Under the pieces are notes generated by a model that was given only the letters and a program-made list of their open reading frames with translations, had not been told where the DNA came from and made no database searches. Both the position numbers and the translations under genes were made by a program. From a virus: a DNA stretch of 35,462 bases. Of this stretch, positions 1 to 6,020 are shown piece after piece (position 1 is the first letter of the stretch; each line of letters starts with the position of its first letter). The DNA lies in the IMG/VR virus record IMGVR_UViG_3300035179_000039, positions 1 through 35,462 of that record; one strand, given 5' to 3'.

Positions 1-127
1 CTTCCAACGTGGCAAGGCATCCAGTTCGACACTGATCCAACCGTCATACTCGACCTAGACCATCCAGACCCCAACGATCCGAAGCACATCAAACAGATCA
101 TAGCTGGCAAGAAGCCTCCTCACGCCT
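1..127. repeat. Terminal redundancy, left copy
   Basis: Identical to the last 127 bases of the window (35336-35462). An exact 127-base overlap is what a de Bruijn assembler using k=127 leaves when it closes a circle, so this is most likely an assembly overlap and not a biological terminal repeat. It shows that the molecule is circular or circularly permuted. Confidence 0.95.
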
Positions 128-806: not shown

Positions 807-3800
807 GTGAAAGTGGTTAGACCAACCTTCGCATTCGGGTCGACAAGCCGACAAAGAGCCCACGACCTGCGAGACACTGCAGTCAGCAGCAAAGCCTACA
901 TCGACTCCATCTACCCATGGTGGTGGGACGAACGAGAGTTTCCCCGAAGAGCGGTCATGACCGAATGGTTCTACAATCCGCTCAAAGGCCAGCCCCGCTA
1001 CGTCGACGTCTACCATCTCCGAAACATGGCCGCAAGCGAATGGGTCCACATGTGCACAAGCACCATCATCGAAGAAGTGTGTCAAGTCCCCTGGGAGCTG
1101 GTGCCCAAACGCCCAGAGCTACGTGAGTCGCCGCCCGAACAACTCCTCTGGCAGATAGAGGATCAGACCGAATTCTTCAACCGCTGCAACGAGAACAAGG
1201 AAACCCTGACTCACATCTTGCGAGCCCTGCTTCGAGACAGCCTGGAGCTGGACGCAAGCTGCCTCGTGAAAGGCTTCAGCGAACGCAGCTATGAACGGGT
1301 GCCAGAGGGCGGCTTTATCCTCAGACCCCGAGGCCAGCGAGAACTTGTGGAGCTGTTCGCTCGAGACGGCGGCAGCTTCATGAAGGAAACGGACGTGAAC
1401 GGCATCGAGCGCCGCTTCTGGCAGTACTCGTACCTGCACCCGGCCGTCGCCCCGATCGAGTTCGACACAGATGAGATCGCCTACGGCACGCGATATCCCC
1501 GCAGCTACAGCGTCTACGGCTGGTCCGAGCTGCAGAGCATGGAGACGATTCTGAACTGCCTCATCAACAGCGCTTTCACCAACGCCACCATGTTCCAAGA
1601 ATACGCCGTGCCCTCGGGCGTCATCAGCTTCCAAGGCTCTCTCGAGGACGAACGTAGGCTCAAAGAGTATTTCACCACCGAGATCAAAGGCCGCTTCCAC
1701 AAAGTGGCCGTGCTCAACAAGGACGCCACCTTCACGCCCATCACCATGTCGAACCGAGACATGGACTTCATCAACATGCAAAAGTGGTTTAGCAGGCTTT
1801 GCTGGGCTCTGTACAAGCTGACGCCGACCGAGCTGGGCTTCCAAGACGAGATCCGAGAAACCGGCAAGGCGATGGCTGCGCAAAGCAAACTGCAGAAACG
1901 GAAGGCCGTGATGCCTGCGCTCAAGCTGATCGAGATCGTGATCAACACGCAGGTCCTCAACGAGTTCACTGACGACCTGATCTTCCAGTTCCAGTACACA
2001 GACAAAGAAGAGGAATACGCGTGGGACGAGCTGTCACTCCAGCAGCTTGACCGAGGACTCGTCACAATCAACGAGCTGCGCAAGCGCCGGAAAATGGGTG
2101 CGCCAGTCGGCTGGGGAGACCTGCCTTTCCAGCTCACCCTTGCAGGAGCTCGGCCGCCAGCCATGGGCGCACCGCCTGGGCAGCAGTCTCTCGGAGAAAC
2201 CGACATGCAGGACAACGACATGGGCAAGCAGGTGTGGGGCGGCCGCAGCACCGAAGAATACGACTTCCGAACAGACATTCCTCAGAACGTTCGCGCGTTG
2301 AACCCGTCCAGCGGTCGCTACGAGCCAGTGAAGATAGGTAACAAGTTTGACAAACGTGAACTTGAGAAAGCCGTGAGCCTCATCGAGAAGAGCTTTCAGT
2401 ACCGTCTGCAGGCGCCCCGAAAGAAGCCGCTTGACCCCTACGAAGTGCACCTAGTGCAAAACCAGATCGCCAGGCTCAAAGCGGCGATCGGAAAGATCCG
2501 CTACCCCATGGGCGCCCTAGGACCGATGGGCACCAAGCCCGACCCGCCCAGTCGAGACGGCATGCTGCTGCCGGGCGAACAGAAGCCTCGCGACGTCGAG
2601 AAGCCTCTTGGACCGAACCAGACTCCAGCGCCTTACCGCACCGGACCCTACGATCGATACCGGGGCGGAGAACAGCCAAGTAACGAGTTTGCAGGCGGAC
2701 ACGGAGCGCACAGGTGGGAAAGAGACAACACGAACATGCGAGTCAAGCCTAGCGAACGAACGGATCCACGTGGCCTAGCACCGCCTCGGAAGCCCACAGT
2801 GCCTTATCTTGACGCAGAATACCAGATCGTGCCCACGCCGAAGATTCCAGTCGGACCCAAGTACCCCCGAGACGTGCCCCCAGTGCACGGCGCCACAGGC
2901 ATGCCTCGCAAGCCTCTCACAGACGAGGAAGAAGGCGACCAAGTGGATGAGTTCACTCCTGAGGGTGTGAGGCCGAAGGGATGGGTAACTATTGGCGGTC
3001 GGCCTGTGCTCATCGGAGAAGAAGATGAAGACGGAGCGGAAGCAGGAAAAGCGCCAAAAGGCACCAAGCTGGAAGGCACCTATTACCGAGGCAGCACCGA
3101 TGGCAAATATCGAGAGTTCAGCTACTTCACCAAGGAGCAAAGGGAAGCGCAGGTGTACGCTGAGGCGAAGGGCGGCAAGGTGTCCGAACACGATATCAAG
3201 GCGCAGAATGCTTTGAAGGCAAACGACATCTGGCACGCGGGAAAGAAGCTGGGCATTCCATTCGACCGAGACAAAGATGACCCTACGAAGGTGCGGCTGC
3301 AAATTCTGAATACCGCTAAGAAGCAAGGCTACGATGCCATCGATATGGACACTTGGACTGTCGCTATCAAACCTGATGTGGTGAAAGAAACTCGAATCTT
3401 GAAGACCAAGATGACTCCGCCTCTGCCGAGCATGGGCGGCAGCAAGTACCGTCAAGTCAAATTTCTTCGTTCAATCATGCCTGAGAAGCTGGGGCTGTAC
3501 GTGGAGCCTTTCGCAGGCGGCGCCGCCCTGTTCTTCGGGCTGCCTGAGAAGCCTGCGCAGGCGGTGCTGAACGACAAGGACCCGTCTTTCCCTACGTTGT
3601 GGCGATGGATCCAGCAAGCCACACCGGAGCAGATCGAGGACCTAAAGAAGCGTCCATGGACGGCTGAGCGAGACGACTTCTTCCGGGCTAAGGACGAGTT
3701 CAAGCCCCGCAGCCTTCTTGACCGGATCTGGCAGATCCTGTACGTTACGAGACATAGCTTCAGGAACAGCAGGCGCACTTGGCGAGGCGAAGACCGAAAA

Positions 3801-4544
3801 GGCACTCACAGAAACGGCATGCCGCAATGGATCAACAGGATCGACCAGTACCGGGAGCGGTTGCAAGGCGCCACGATTGAAAACAAGGACTGGAAAGAAG
3901 TCATGCAAGAGCACGATGGGCCGGACACGTTCTTCTACATTGACCCGCCCTATGAGCAGGAGTTTGCTAGGCAGCTGCCGGCGGTGCTGGACCGAACCAA
4001 GGGCAAGTGGCTGCTCAGCTTCGGAGAAGACGAGACGCTGCAGCGAGAGCTGGAGAAACGAGGCTTCCACGTCAAGGCGCTGAACGTCACCAACATGATC
4101 AACAAGCCTGATGCAGCCACACGCACCATGCGCCAGGAGATGCTGGCCGCCAACTACCCGCTCGAGTTCGATGGCGACGTCACCTTCAAGTTCGTGGACA
4201 CCGACGTCAGCATGAAACAGCTGTTCTTCTCTGAGGGACGCGTGGTGACCAAAGGCGTGCATGACCATGAGCAAGCCCTCTCAGACAGATTGAAGCTGCT
4301 GATCCGACAGGTGCACACCGGCGCCCTAGGAAAAGAGCAAGCAGCCATCGAAGCCAAAGCAGCGATCGACCACCACATTCTGCAGGGCGTGAAAGAGGCG
4401 ACTGAAAGCGCCGTCGCCCGACAGCTCAAGAAGGAGCAAGTGACCTTGCCGCCGGAAGCCATGGCTCGAATAGAACGCCAGGCGGCGCAGCACATGGAAG
4501 ACTTCATGCGAATCTTGGGAGATGCAGAGAATGCCCAAAAGTAG
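807..4544 (+). CDS. Portal fused to ART-like domain, D12 adenine methyltransferase and helical tail
   Basis: A 1245-residue protein starting with GTG at 807 (MKVVRP). Residues 1-440 look like a portal protein: the stretch FSRLCWALYKLTPTELGF followed by a long helix KAMAAQSKLQKRKAVMPALK is the usual portal stem and crown signature. Residues about 440-745 are a Pro/Gly-rich linker. Residues about 750-865 resemble the ADP-ribosyltransferase-like domain of phage polyvalent proteins (TYYRGS, FSYFT, a conserved-looking QNAL, KKQGYDAIDMD). Residues about 875-1130 are a D12-class DNA adenine methyltransferase, with EPFAGGAALFFG (SAM binding) and YIDPPYE at 3939-3956 (catalytic DPPY). The last 95 residues are helical and may be the N-terminal part of a MuF protein. 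An ordinary portal is roughly 400-550 residues. No frame break is seen, so this is either a true fusion or a precursor cut by the prohead protease. Confidence 0.88.
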   Translation: MKVVRPTFAFGSTSRQRAHDLRDTAVSSKAYIDSIYPWWWDEREFPRRAVMTEWFYNPLKGQPRYVDVYHLRNMAASEWVHMCTSTIIEEVCQVPWELVPKRPELRESPPEQLLWQIEDQTEFFNRCNENKETLTHILRALLRDSLELDASCLVKGFSERSYERVPEGGFILRPRGQRELVELFARDGGSFMKETDVNGIERRFWQYSYLHPAVAPIEFDTDEIAYGTRYPRSYSVYGWSELQSMETILNCLINSAFTNATMFQEYAVPSGVISFQGSLEDERRLKEYFTTEIKGRFHKVAVLNKDATFTPITMSNRDMDFINMQKWFSRLCWALYKLTPTELGFQDEIRETGKAMAAQSKLQKRKAVMPALKLIEIVINTQVLNEFTDDLIFQFQYTDKEEEYAWDELSLQQLDRGLVTINELRKRRKMGAPVGWGDLPFQLTLAGARPPAMGAPPGQQSLGETDMQDNDMGKQVWGGRSTEEYDFRTDIPQNVRALNPSSGRYEPVKIGNKFDKRELEKAVSLIEKSFQYRLQAPRKKPLDPYEVHLVQNQIARLKAAIGKIRYPMGALGPMGTKPDPPSRDGMLLPGEQKPRDVEKPLGPNQTPAPYRTGPYDRYRGGEQPSNEFAGGHGAHRWERDNTNMRVKPSERTDPRGLAPPRKPTVPYLDAEYQIVPTPKIPVGPKYPRDVPPVHGATGMPRKPLTDEEEGDQVDEFTPEGVRPKGWVTIGGRPVLIGEEDEDGAEAGKAPKGTKLEGTYYRGSTDGKYREFSYFTKEQREAQVYAEAKGGKVSEHDIKAQNALKANDIWHAGKKLGIPFDRDKDDPTKVRLQILNTAKKQGYDAIDMDTWTVAIKPDVVKETRILKTKMTPPLPSMGGSKYRQVKFLRSIMPEKLGLYVEPFAGGAALFFGLPEKPAQAVLNDKDPSFPTLWRWIQQATPEQIEDLKKRPWTAERDDFFRAKDEFKPRSLLDRIWQILYVTRHSFRNSRRTWRGEDRKGTHRNGMPQWINRIDQYRERLQGATIENKDWKEVMQEHDGPDTFFYIDPPYEQEFARQLPAVLDRTKGKWLLSFGEDETLQRELEKRGFHVKALNVTNMINKPDAATRTMRQEMLAANYPLEFDGDVTFKFVDTDVSMKQLFFSEGRVVTKGVHDHEQALSDRLKLLIRQVHTGALGKEQAAIEAKAAIDHHILQGVKEATESAVARQLKKEQVTLPPEAMARIERQAAQHMEDFMRILGDAENAQK
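1910..1931 (+). repeat. 22-bp direct repeat, copy in portal gene
   Basis: These 22 bases, coding for the portal segment MPALKLI, recur exactly and in the same orientation at 33643-33664, upstream of the fibre-like gene. A match of this length is not expected by chance in 35 kb. Confidence 0.85.
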
Positions 4545-4838: not shown

Positions 4839-6020
4839 TTGAGGAACCGCCGTGAAAGGGTGCCTTGGAGTGTGCTACATATAGCTGAAGAACCGGATTT
4901 CTGGAAGAGCCTAGATGGGCTGCTGATGCGCATAGATCTGCTGGCGCAGAACCTCGCCTGGAAGTCCTACAACGAAGCCATGCAGGAAACCCTGCGCTTC
5001 GAAGGCGTCACCTGGGTGGAATGGGTCTCAGACTACACGCAGGACCCGGCGAGAGGACCATGCCTCTACTGTGATTCGCAGTCCGGACGCCGCTACCGCC
5101 TAGGCCAGTTTCTGCCTTCGCTGCCTCATCATCCGAACTGCCTACCGGGGAACGCTCTTGTATCGTCCAGTCACAGGATCACGGGTGCTACGAAACGGGC
5201 ATACGATGGAAATGTTCTCATCATCCAAACAGCCACGGGTGACCCTCTTTCCGTCACGCCAAATCACCCTATACTCACACCGCATGGATGGGTTCCTGCC
5301 AGCTTCCTGAATAAAGGCAGCTACGTAGTCTGCCAGCGCAGAAGTGAGTCTATCTTGTCCAGTAATGGGAATCATCAACAGATGCCAACCCCTATTGAGA
5401 ATGTAGCGAATGCGTTTCTCATGATGCCGACGACGCTTCGCAGCAAAGTGCCAACCGCCGCCAAAGATTTCCATGGCGACGGACGGAACGGCGAGGTCGC
5501 AATTGTAGGGACCAATCGCCACTTGATGCCTAACAGAGATGCCTCGGTCAACAAGCATCTGCGCAAATTGGCGTTCATGGAGAGAGATGCCGCTCTGATG
5601 GGTCTCCACAGTCTTGGCCAATTGCAGTTTCTCAGAAAGACTCTTCTTTCGACCACGAGTAGCATCATGAGCCGCACGAACCTGTGCAGCTCGTTGCTCG
5701 GGATTCATCTGGCGCCATTTCAGGAGTCCTGCTTCATGGCGACCACGGATCGGTACGTTGGCTTGAATCAGACGCGCTCGAACCGTTCCTCGGTCGACCT
5801 TGAAGTGCTTCGAAACCTTCTTCTCCGAGATGCCGGAAACATATTCTTTGATGAGATTGTCGATGTCGGCTGGAGAAAGTTTCATGGTCACATCTACAAC
5901 TTAGAAACATCGGCGGGCTATTTTAACGCTTCCGACATAATCGTCTCTAACTGCAAGTGTGACTGGGCTCCAATTCTTCCGACAGAAGAGGAATATGTTC
6001 GCAAAGGCATATTTCCCTAA
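4839..6020 (+). CDS. MuF-type minor head protein interrupted by an intein
   Basis: The 393-residue precursor carries a 271-residue intein (5139-5951). The spliced product would be 122 residues ending in the MuF/SPP1-gp7 signature: CLYCDSQSG, then LPSLPHHPN joined to CKCDWAPI. In this family the HPNCxC motif closes the fold of the minor head protein that sits at the portal vertex. The start is uncertain: TTG at 4839, or GTG at 4860 preceded by a GAGG at 4841. The ordinary family N-terminal helices are not here; the end of the portal fusion may supply them. No membrane segments. The antisense strand of the intein encodes a nuclease (5142-5885). Confidence 0.88.
   Translation: MRNRRERVPWSVLHIAEEPDFWKSLDGLLMRIDLLAQNLAWKSYNEAMQETLRFEGVTWVEWVSDYTQDPARGPCLYCDSQSGRRYRLGQFLPSLPHHPNCLPGNALVSSSHRITGATKRAYDGNVLIIQTATGDPLSVTPNHPILTPHGWVPASFLNKGSYVVCQRRSESILSSNGNHQQMPTPIENVANAFLMMPTTLRSKVPTAAKDFHGDGRNGEVAIVGTNRHLMPNRDASVNKHLRKLAFMERDAALMGLHSLGQLQFLRKTLLSTTSSIMSRTNLCSSLLGIHLAPFQESCFMATTDRYVGLNQTRSNRSSVDLEVLRNLLLRDAGNIFFDEIVDVGWRKFHGHIYNLETSAGYFNASDIIVSNCKCDWAPILPTEEEYVRKGIFP
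5139..5951 (+). other. Intein (Hint-domain protein-splicing element), 271 residues
   Basis: Cys1 is at 5139-5141, opening block A (CLPGNALVSSSHRITG). Block B contains TPNH at 5256-5267 followed by PILTPHGWVPA. The C-terminal blocks are FHGHIYNLETSAGYFNASD and IIVSN, with Asn at 5949-5951, followed by the +1 extein Cys at 5952. The penultimate residue is Ser and not the usual His. There is no LAGLIDADG domain in the sense frame. The central region holds KDFHGDGRNGEVAIVGTNR, which I recall as characteristic of inteins in phage MuF proteins; that recollection was not checked against a database. The endonuclease appears to be supplied by the opposite strand. Confidence 0.9.
5142..5885 (-). CDS. 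Vsr/DUF559-like homing endonuclease encoded antisense within the intein
   Basis: About 247 residues from ATG at 5885 (a GTG two codons upstream, at 5891, is possible); a GTGA sits just upstream as a weak ribosome site. Residues about 8-50 form a helix-turn-helix (GISEKKVSKHFKVDRGTVRA), followed by a basic linker. Then comes a PD-(D/E)XK/Vsr-like core: SLHERQFAQMLVDRG, HQVAIGPYNCDLAV and SVAMEIFGGGWHF, with candidate catalytic Glu in LHERQ, Asp at 5496-5498, Glu at 5469-5471 and a following His, and a basic helix (KRRRHHEKRIRYILNRGW). The C-terminal YRVIWRDGKRVTRGC is a further strand pair. The whole gene lies inside the intein, its codons exactly opposite intein codons. Vsr-like (EDxHD) nucleases are known homing enzymes. 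Confidence 0.85.
   Translation of the reverse strand: MKLSPADIDNLIKEYVSGISEKKVSKHFKVDRGTVRARLIQANVPIRGRHEAGLLKWRQMNPEQRAAQVRAAHDATRGRKKSLSEKLQLAKTVETHQSGISLHERQFAQMLVDRGISVRHQVAIGPYNCDLAVPSVAMEIFGGGWHFAAKRRRHHEKRIRYILNRGWHLLMIPITGQDRLTSALADYVAAFIQEAGRNPSMRCEYRVIWRDGKRVTRGCLDDENISIVCPFRSTRDPVTGRYKSVPR

Follow-up and report, generated by a model that had tools for sequence, protein, structure and literature searches.

The window, that is the whole stretch of viral DNA analysed here (35,462 nucleotides), carries on its plus strand an open reading frame (ORF) for a MuF-like phage head protein (4839–6020, start codon uncertain), which is interrupted by an intein of 271 amino acids (5139–5951). The N-extein extends over 4839–5138 and the C-extein over 5952–6020, while the intein itself starts with Cys1, terminates with Ser-Asn and is followed by Cys+1. 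On the opposite strand lies a gene for a predicted nuclease of 249 amino acids (5142–5891, minus strand), and since the two ORFs share an exact codon register, every codon of the sense frame pairs, as its reverse complement, with a single codon of the antisense frame. The FHGDG motif of the intein (residues 111–115, plus strand 5469–5483, TTC CAT GGC GAC GGA) reads on the other strand as TCC GTC GCC ATG GAA, that is S137-V138-A139-M140-E141 of the nuclease, and GEVAIVG (plus strand 5490–5510, GGC GAG GTC GCA ATT GTA GGG) is the complement of antisense PYNCDLA, with its Asp codon opposite 5496–5498. Both pairings, and the place of the Asp, had been proposed in a preliminary description of this DNA, and on reading the sequence they are exact to the nucleotide. 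The window also contains (807–4544, plus strand) an ORF of 1245 amino acids in which the domain of a phage portal protein is fused, in one frame, to a D12-class adenine methyltransferase and to a stretch resembling ADP-ribosyltransferases (ART-PolyVal, with a score below the Pfam cut-off).

Homologues of the sense ORF are annotated as head morphogenesis or MuF proteins, and the junctions of the insertion (HPN/C...SN/CKC) resemble the MuF site HPxCRC. Within the intein, block B (TPNHP) corresponds to residues 40–44 and block F to GHIYNLET; C1, T40 and H43, and likewise the terminal Asn, are invariant across 81 family sequences, and most of 151 inteins show HNC or SNC at the C-terminal junction, in frame with the host gene. 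The copy in the window matches the Pfam family Intein_splicing (PF14890) with an E-value of 1e-5, below the Pfam cut-off, and 77 of the 81 family members match it too. The sense profile matches solved inteins in the PDB (E-value 4e-11), and a Foldseek search with the AlphaFold2 model of the sense protein retrieves inteins with a probability of 1.0. In this model both Hint halves and residues 81–100 are confidently predicted, residues 131–220 have a pLDDT near 50, and FHGDG (pLDDT about 57–70) falls in a part of moderate confidence, within a loop that is predicted to join two strands, flanked by a helix (residues 86–95) and by strands 100–105 and 120–125. By its Cys1, block B, C-terminal Asn, profile and predicted fold, the sense insert is thus assigned to the Hint inteins. 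A mild second stretch of sense constraint is seen at intein residues 85–92 (5391–5414, plus strand; Ile86, Glu87 and residue 90), in a confidently predicted helix.

The antisense frame had been taken in the preliminary description to encode a nuclease, and several lines of analysis bear this out. A tblastn search with the antisense protein finds matches in 122 phage records, in 105 of them over 80% or more of its length (the lowest E-value being ~1e-34), and its AlphaFold2 model has a mean pLDDT of 92.6. The best structural matches of this model in Foldseek are Vsr (1vsr) and the catalytic domain of I-Bth0305I (3r3p), both with a probability of 1.0, and profile searches retrieve 3hrl (E-value 1.5e-6) and 3r3p (E-value 2.5e-6); among 70 members of the nuclease family, the Pfam domains MTES_1575 and DUF559 are recognized in 40 and 14, respectively. 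In the nuclease core an Asp, an Asn and a Glu are invariant in 182 of 182 non-redundant overlapping relatives, and a Tyr is found in 180. The predicted catalytic residues are Glu141 (codon GAA, minus strand 5469–5471, opposite sense Phe111; E in 182/182) and Asp132 (codon GAC, minus strand 5496–5498; D in 182/182), which in the model lie on the adjacent core strands 138–144 and 129–135, at the places expected for an active site, as had been anticipated. The check then suggested, following the antisense Asp and Glu through aligned relatives, gave the same count for both.

Two further residues stand out: the nearly invariant Arg160 (minus strand 5412–5414), at whose column R or K is present in 182/182, and the acidic Glu106 (minus strand 5574–5576), on the helix that precedes the core strands, which is nearly invariant in alignments A1 and A9 and aligns with a Glu of I-Bth0305I. 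In the alignment to 3r3p, which carries the EDxHD set, the first Glu and the core Glu align, and an Ala stands opposite Asp132. The N-terminal part (residues about 6–45, minus strand 5757–5876) is a helix-turn-helix region. A scan with the nuclease of the window as a single protein gave no match; A1, the full diverse antisense alignment, holds no conserved stretch usable for searching, and sub-alignments were used instead. Matches from class-wide genome searches were mostly to the helix-turn-helix only. By homology and modelled fold, the antisense frame is a real gene, encoding a protein with helix-turn-helix units and a nuclease domain of the Vsr/DUF559/MTES_1575 type (PD-(D/E)xK-like), whose activity is predicted.

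The nuclease starts with GTG at 5891–5889, the usual start position of the family, with an ATG also available at 5885–5883, and this start codon lies in the complement of Hint block F (GHIYNLETS, plus strand 5886–5912). Many relatives have GGAGGTTATAAACATG as the complement of their block F (GHVYNLQT), which provides a start codon preceded by a Shine-Dalgarno sequence; the ribosome-binding sequence of the window copy is weak (TAAGTTGTAGATGTG). Codon choice in block F is skewed accordingly, the His codon being CAT in 88 of 103 sequences (vs 48% elsewhere) and the Leu codon CTC in 86 of 117 (vs 34% elsewhere). At the other end the stop codon, TAG at 5144–5142, adjoins the Cys1 codon of the intein, and the commonest stop position in relatives is the codon directly after Cys1. 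Scanning the DNA ahead of this start for promoters gave one weak minus-strand site and was uninformative.

The same arrangement recurs throughout the family. The opposite in-register frame is open over the whole nuclease domain in 291 of 294 nuclease loci, the 182 overlapping copies being what is left after reduction to 60% identity, with a median pairwise identity of 0.30. When inteins were selected by their sense sequence instead, 80 of 80 matched the nuclease in the complementary strand, and with a second sense-based search the set came to 105 distinct inteins, all with a nuclease, one of them clearly dead. The hosts include phages of Proteobacteria and Actinobacteria, together with contigs assigned to other phyla, and full-length copies in bacterial genomes overlap likewise. 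In phage records the relatives of the nuclease typically lie inside head-morphogenesis genes, on the opposite strand; annotators usually call the sense gene alone, and one Acinetobacter phage record annotates a free-standing antisense copy as a CDS. Because the frame is open in almost all loci, the active-site residues are invariant in the 182 copies, both sense-based selections yield nuclease-bearing inteins and several host phyla are represented, the two-strand arrangement is old and widespread, as had been surmised from this single sequence.

The selection acting on each strand can be read from the codons. Interior codon changes in related pairs occur at a rate of 0.304 at the first sense position (p1, the antisense wobble position), 0.182 at the third (p3) and 0.103 at the second (p2), and p1 exceeds p3 in 22 of 22 independent pairs. 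The codon tests count sequences below 60% identity, approximately, as independent, and the position test was made on distinct sequences, since duplicate contigs inflate its result. This order, with p1 ahead of p3 in every pair, is what a gene translated from the complementary strand would show; across from the N-terminal half of the Hint domain, p1 and p3 change about equally. For each column, the sense residue frequency to be expected was then computed from the antisense residues and the codon usage of each sequence. His112, Gly113, Asp114 and Gly115 are observed at frequencies of 0.88, 0.93, 0.92 and 0.65, compared with 0.26, 0.44, 0.46 and 0.26 expected, and the excess of His, Gly and Asp resembles that of splicing block B; a strong excess is also present in the N-terminal Hint half (residues 17–61) and at residue 90. 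Residues 119–147, including EVAIV opposite the Asp (119–123), match the expectation from the antisense frame, in agreement with the earlier proposal; the antisense frame alone accounts for the conservation of GEVAIVG, and the antisense Asp for that of EVAIV. The codons of the antisense residues opposite HGDG, in contrast, speak for selection on the sense motif, V being GTG in 152/162 (vs 24%) and GTC in 116/119 (vs 46%), A being GCC in 169/175 (vs 46%) and I being ATC in 52/52 (vs 57%). Residue 111 is Phe in 148 and Leu in 34 of the 182 copies, as the antisense Glu codons GAA and GAG permit, with some preference for Phe (148/182 vs 47% expected).

Natural variants separate the two constraints. 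In one locus (L362, 2001–3000, plus strand), the only such case in the 105 inteins, the splicing blocks and FHGDG are intact and the antisense nuclease frame is broken. Its motif AEAFHGDG is encoded by GCC GAG GCG TTT CAC GGG GAC GGG, where TTT and GGG turn the antisense Glu into Lys and the Ala into Pro, and the stretch opposite the Asp has drifted. An FHGDG intein that has lost the antisense Glu and Asp, the very case named beforehand as evidence against a motif kept only by the nuclease, thus exists, as a single instance (n = 1). The reverse situation is found in L289 (1794–2660, plus strand), a free-standing nuclease convergent with, and adjoining, an uninterrupted MuF gene: VAVE (GTT GCG GTT GAA) is kept, the sense peptide opposite is FNRNR, SSKVAVVWAD opposite the Asp is retained and a decayed intein reading frame is still visible on the other strand. 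A second free-standing nuclease, L009 (1264–2196, plus strand; GTG GCG CTG GAA), is likewise convergent with and adjacent to an uninterrupted MuF gene; in the tree, where depth is poorly resolved, it is nested inside the overlapping copies, so that the free-standing state looks derived there. These two are the only convincing free-standing nucleases among the gathered loci. A further candidate, L090, was dropped, as it matches through the helix-turn-helix only; this locus (840–3056, plus strand) encodes a phage protein of 739 amino acids with a nuclease-related helix-turn-helix and an end that, by eye, resembles a DNA methyltransferase.

Taken together, the excess of conservation and the natural knock-outs dissociate the motif into a Phe/Glu position common to both proteins, an HGDG held by the intein and an EVAIV held by the nuclease, and FHGDG would thus be a point of dual constraint, maintained jointly through the intein and through the active site of the nuclease. 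The preliminary description had suggested that it may be kept for the catalytic site and not for splicing. This stands for residue 111, where the Glu is absolute and Phe varies to Leu just as GAA and GAG allow (148/34), and the conservation of the neighbouring EVAIV is fully accounted for in the same way. It fails for HGDG, whose four residues are conserved far above what the antisense strand requires, which persists in L362 with the antisense Glu destroyed and which is lost in L289 with VAVE intact; that pairing with the active-site codons is all that conserves the motif, and that the intein makes no use of it, is therefore very improbable. The nuclease side requires just [VIL]-A-[VMI]-E, which many codons would satisfy. 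One 12-nucleotide codon set, GTCGCCGTGGAA, is by far the commonest (89/182), as might be expected if the HGDG codons were fixed by a signal in the DNA or RNA, such as a protein-binding site, a regulatory element or the recognition sequence of the nuclease, and not by the sense protein. However, GAC and GAT for the Asp, and CAC and CAT for the His, are both in use across the family, as selection on a sense protein predicts, and in L362 TTT and GGG replace the usual TTC and GGC with the peptide unchanged. On account of these L362 codons a DNA-level signal was rejected, and we give it hardly any credence.

The sense protein might also keep HGDG for a purpose other than splicing or folding of the Hint domain, for example to bind DNA or the head protein. 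The insert that separates the two Hint halves is an add-on, in which a helix and strands flank the motif, but this would be an odd job for a product that is thrown away once splicing is complete, and such a role is unlikely, if still worth considering. Finally, the whole antisense ORF could be no gene at all but a consequence of codon bias on the strand that faces a constrained intein, given that in-register antisense frames are often open, and commonly long in GC-rich DNA, and that most annotators ignore this one. Against this, the frame encodes a recognizable nuclease with an invariant active site and a confident fold, substitutions cluster at the first position of the sense codons, the start signal is retained and free-standing copies, one of them annotated as a CDS, persist without the sense frame, which leaves this explanation practically no weight. 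The dual-constraint reading is thus preferred: what lies at the locus is, with high probability, a mobile MuF intein with a homing-type nuclease as a full-length gene on its opposite strand, and with FHGDG constrained by both.

As for mobility, a MuF query with joined exteins finds uninterrupted alleles, with 91–96% protein identity, in other Salmonella phages, beside interrupted ones, so that the conserved insertion site HPxC/xC is polymorphic for presence and absence of the intein. This polymorphism, together with the nuclease fold, supports a homing element, with presumed cleavage and homing; the insertion site and the polymorphism also suggest the target specificity of the nuclease. From the homology, the two open frames, the selection on each strand and the presence/absence polymorphism, all computed here, the following mechanism may be proposed. 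The sense strand would make a Hint splicing domain in two parts, one from Cys1 to block B and one from block F to Asn, along with an insert, and the antisense strand, if expressed, N-terminal helix-turn-helix units and a Vsr/DUF559-type core (Asp132, Glu141), from a start (in relatives also a Shine-Dalgarno sequence) in the complement of block F to a stop adjoining the Cys1 codon. The nuclease would cut intein-less MuF alleles at HPxC/xC, and repair of the cut allele would copy the intein together with the antisense gene. Phe/Leu111 would be tied to the catalytic Glu and EVAIV downstream kept by the nuclease Asp, while His112-Gly-Asp-Gly115 would be kept by selection on the intein protein, presumably for folding or splicing.

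These elements probably form a widespread class of phage inteins, a generalization in which we place considerable confidence, with a complete homing nuclease gene on the opposite strand, about 250 codons serving two unrelated proteins in register, the nuclease start inside a splicing block and the catalytic Glu opposite an intein motif, whereby the two activities would be tied and decay of the nuclease almost prevented (one clearly dead in 105). This bears on the decay of homing nucleases in general: in this family almost every nuclease is intact, perhaps for the reason that the strand facing it has to remain open and shares key positions. Deep natural alignments of dual-coding genes that are fully antisense to each other are rare, and the family provides one, in which the selection on each strand is readable codon by codon. 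It also brings the questions of how antisense overlapping genes arise, and of what an intein minimally requires, within reach of ordinary mutagenesis.

MuF inteins have been noted in the minor head or capsid morphogenesis protein of Salmonella and E. coli phages (PMC8425127, PMC11162368), and the inteins in these passages and in the Snoke record (MK931441) are apparently the same as those described here; the passages dealing with MuF inteins, and the annotations of the record, make no mention of an antisense nuclease. A literature search, mostly of open-access papers, did not turn up any intein described as carrying an antisense nuclease, and an intein with a homing-type nuclease gene on its antisense strand is likely an undescribed architecture, and apparently an undescribed way of building a mobile intein, in phages of several bacterial phyla; it escaped notice since annotation pipelines assign genes to just one of the strands. 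The homing-endonuclease inteins PI-MtuI RecA, PI-PfuI and PhoVMA share with it the Hint Cys1, block B TxxH, terminal Asn and Cys+1, as well as an allele-dependent presence and a linked nuclease, but their nuclease, of the LAGLIDADG or HNH kind, is a domain translated in frame with the intein, whereas the one described here is of the Vsr/DUF559 type and has its own gene on the opposite strand of the same bases. I-Bth0305I (EDxHD, Vsr-like) has in common the core profile and fold, the DNA-binding units and the location in a phage mobile element; it is, however, intron-encoded (a mobile intron protein in the PDB) and its residue aligned to Asp132 is not an Asp, while the nuclease described here is intein-linked and has its DNA-binding region in an N-terminal helix-turn-helix. 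Antisense homing endonuclease genes are known from nuclear rDNA group I introns, namely I-DsqI and D. iridis S956 (PMC9548176), where, as here, a homing gene lies opposite its own self-splicing element; in those introns the gene is inserted in a peripheral RNA segment, with no dual protein coding (PMC9548176), whereas in the MuF inteins about 250 codons are common to two proteins, in register.
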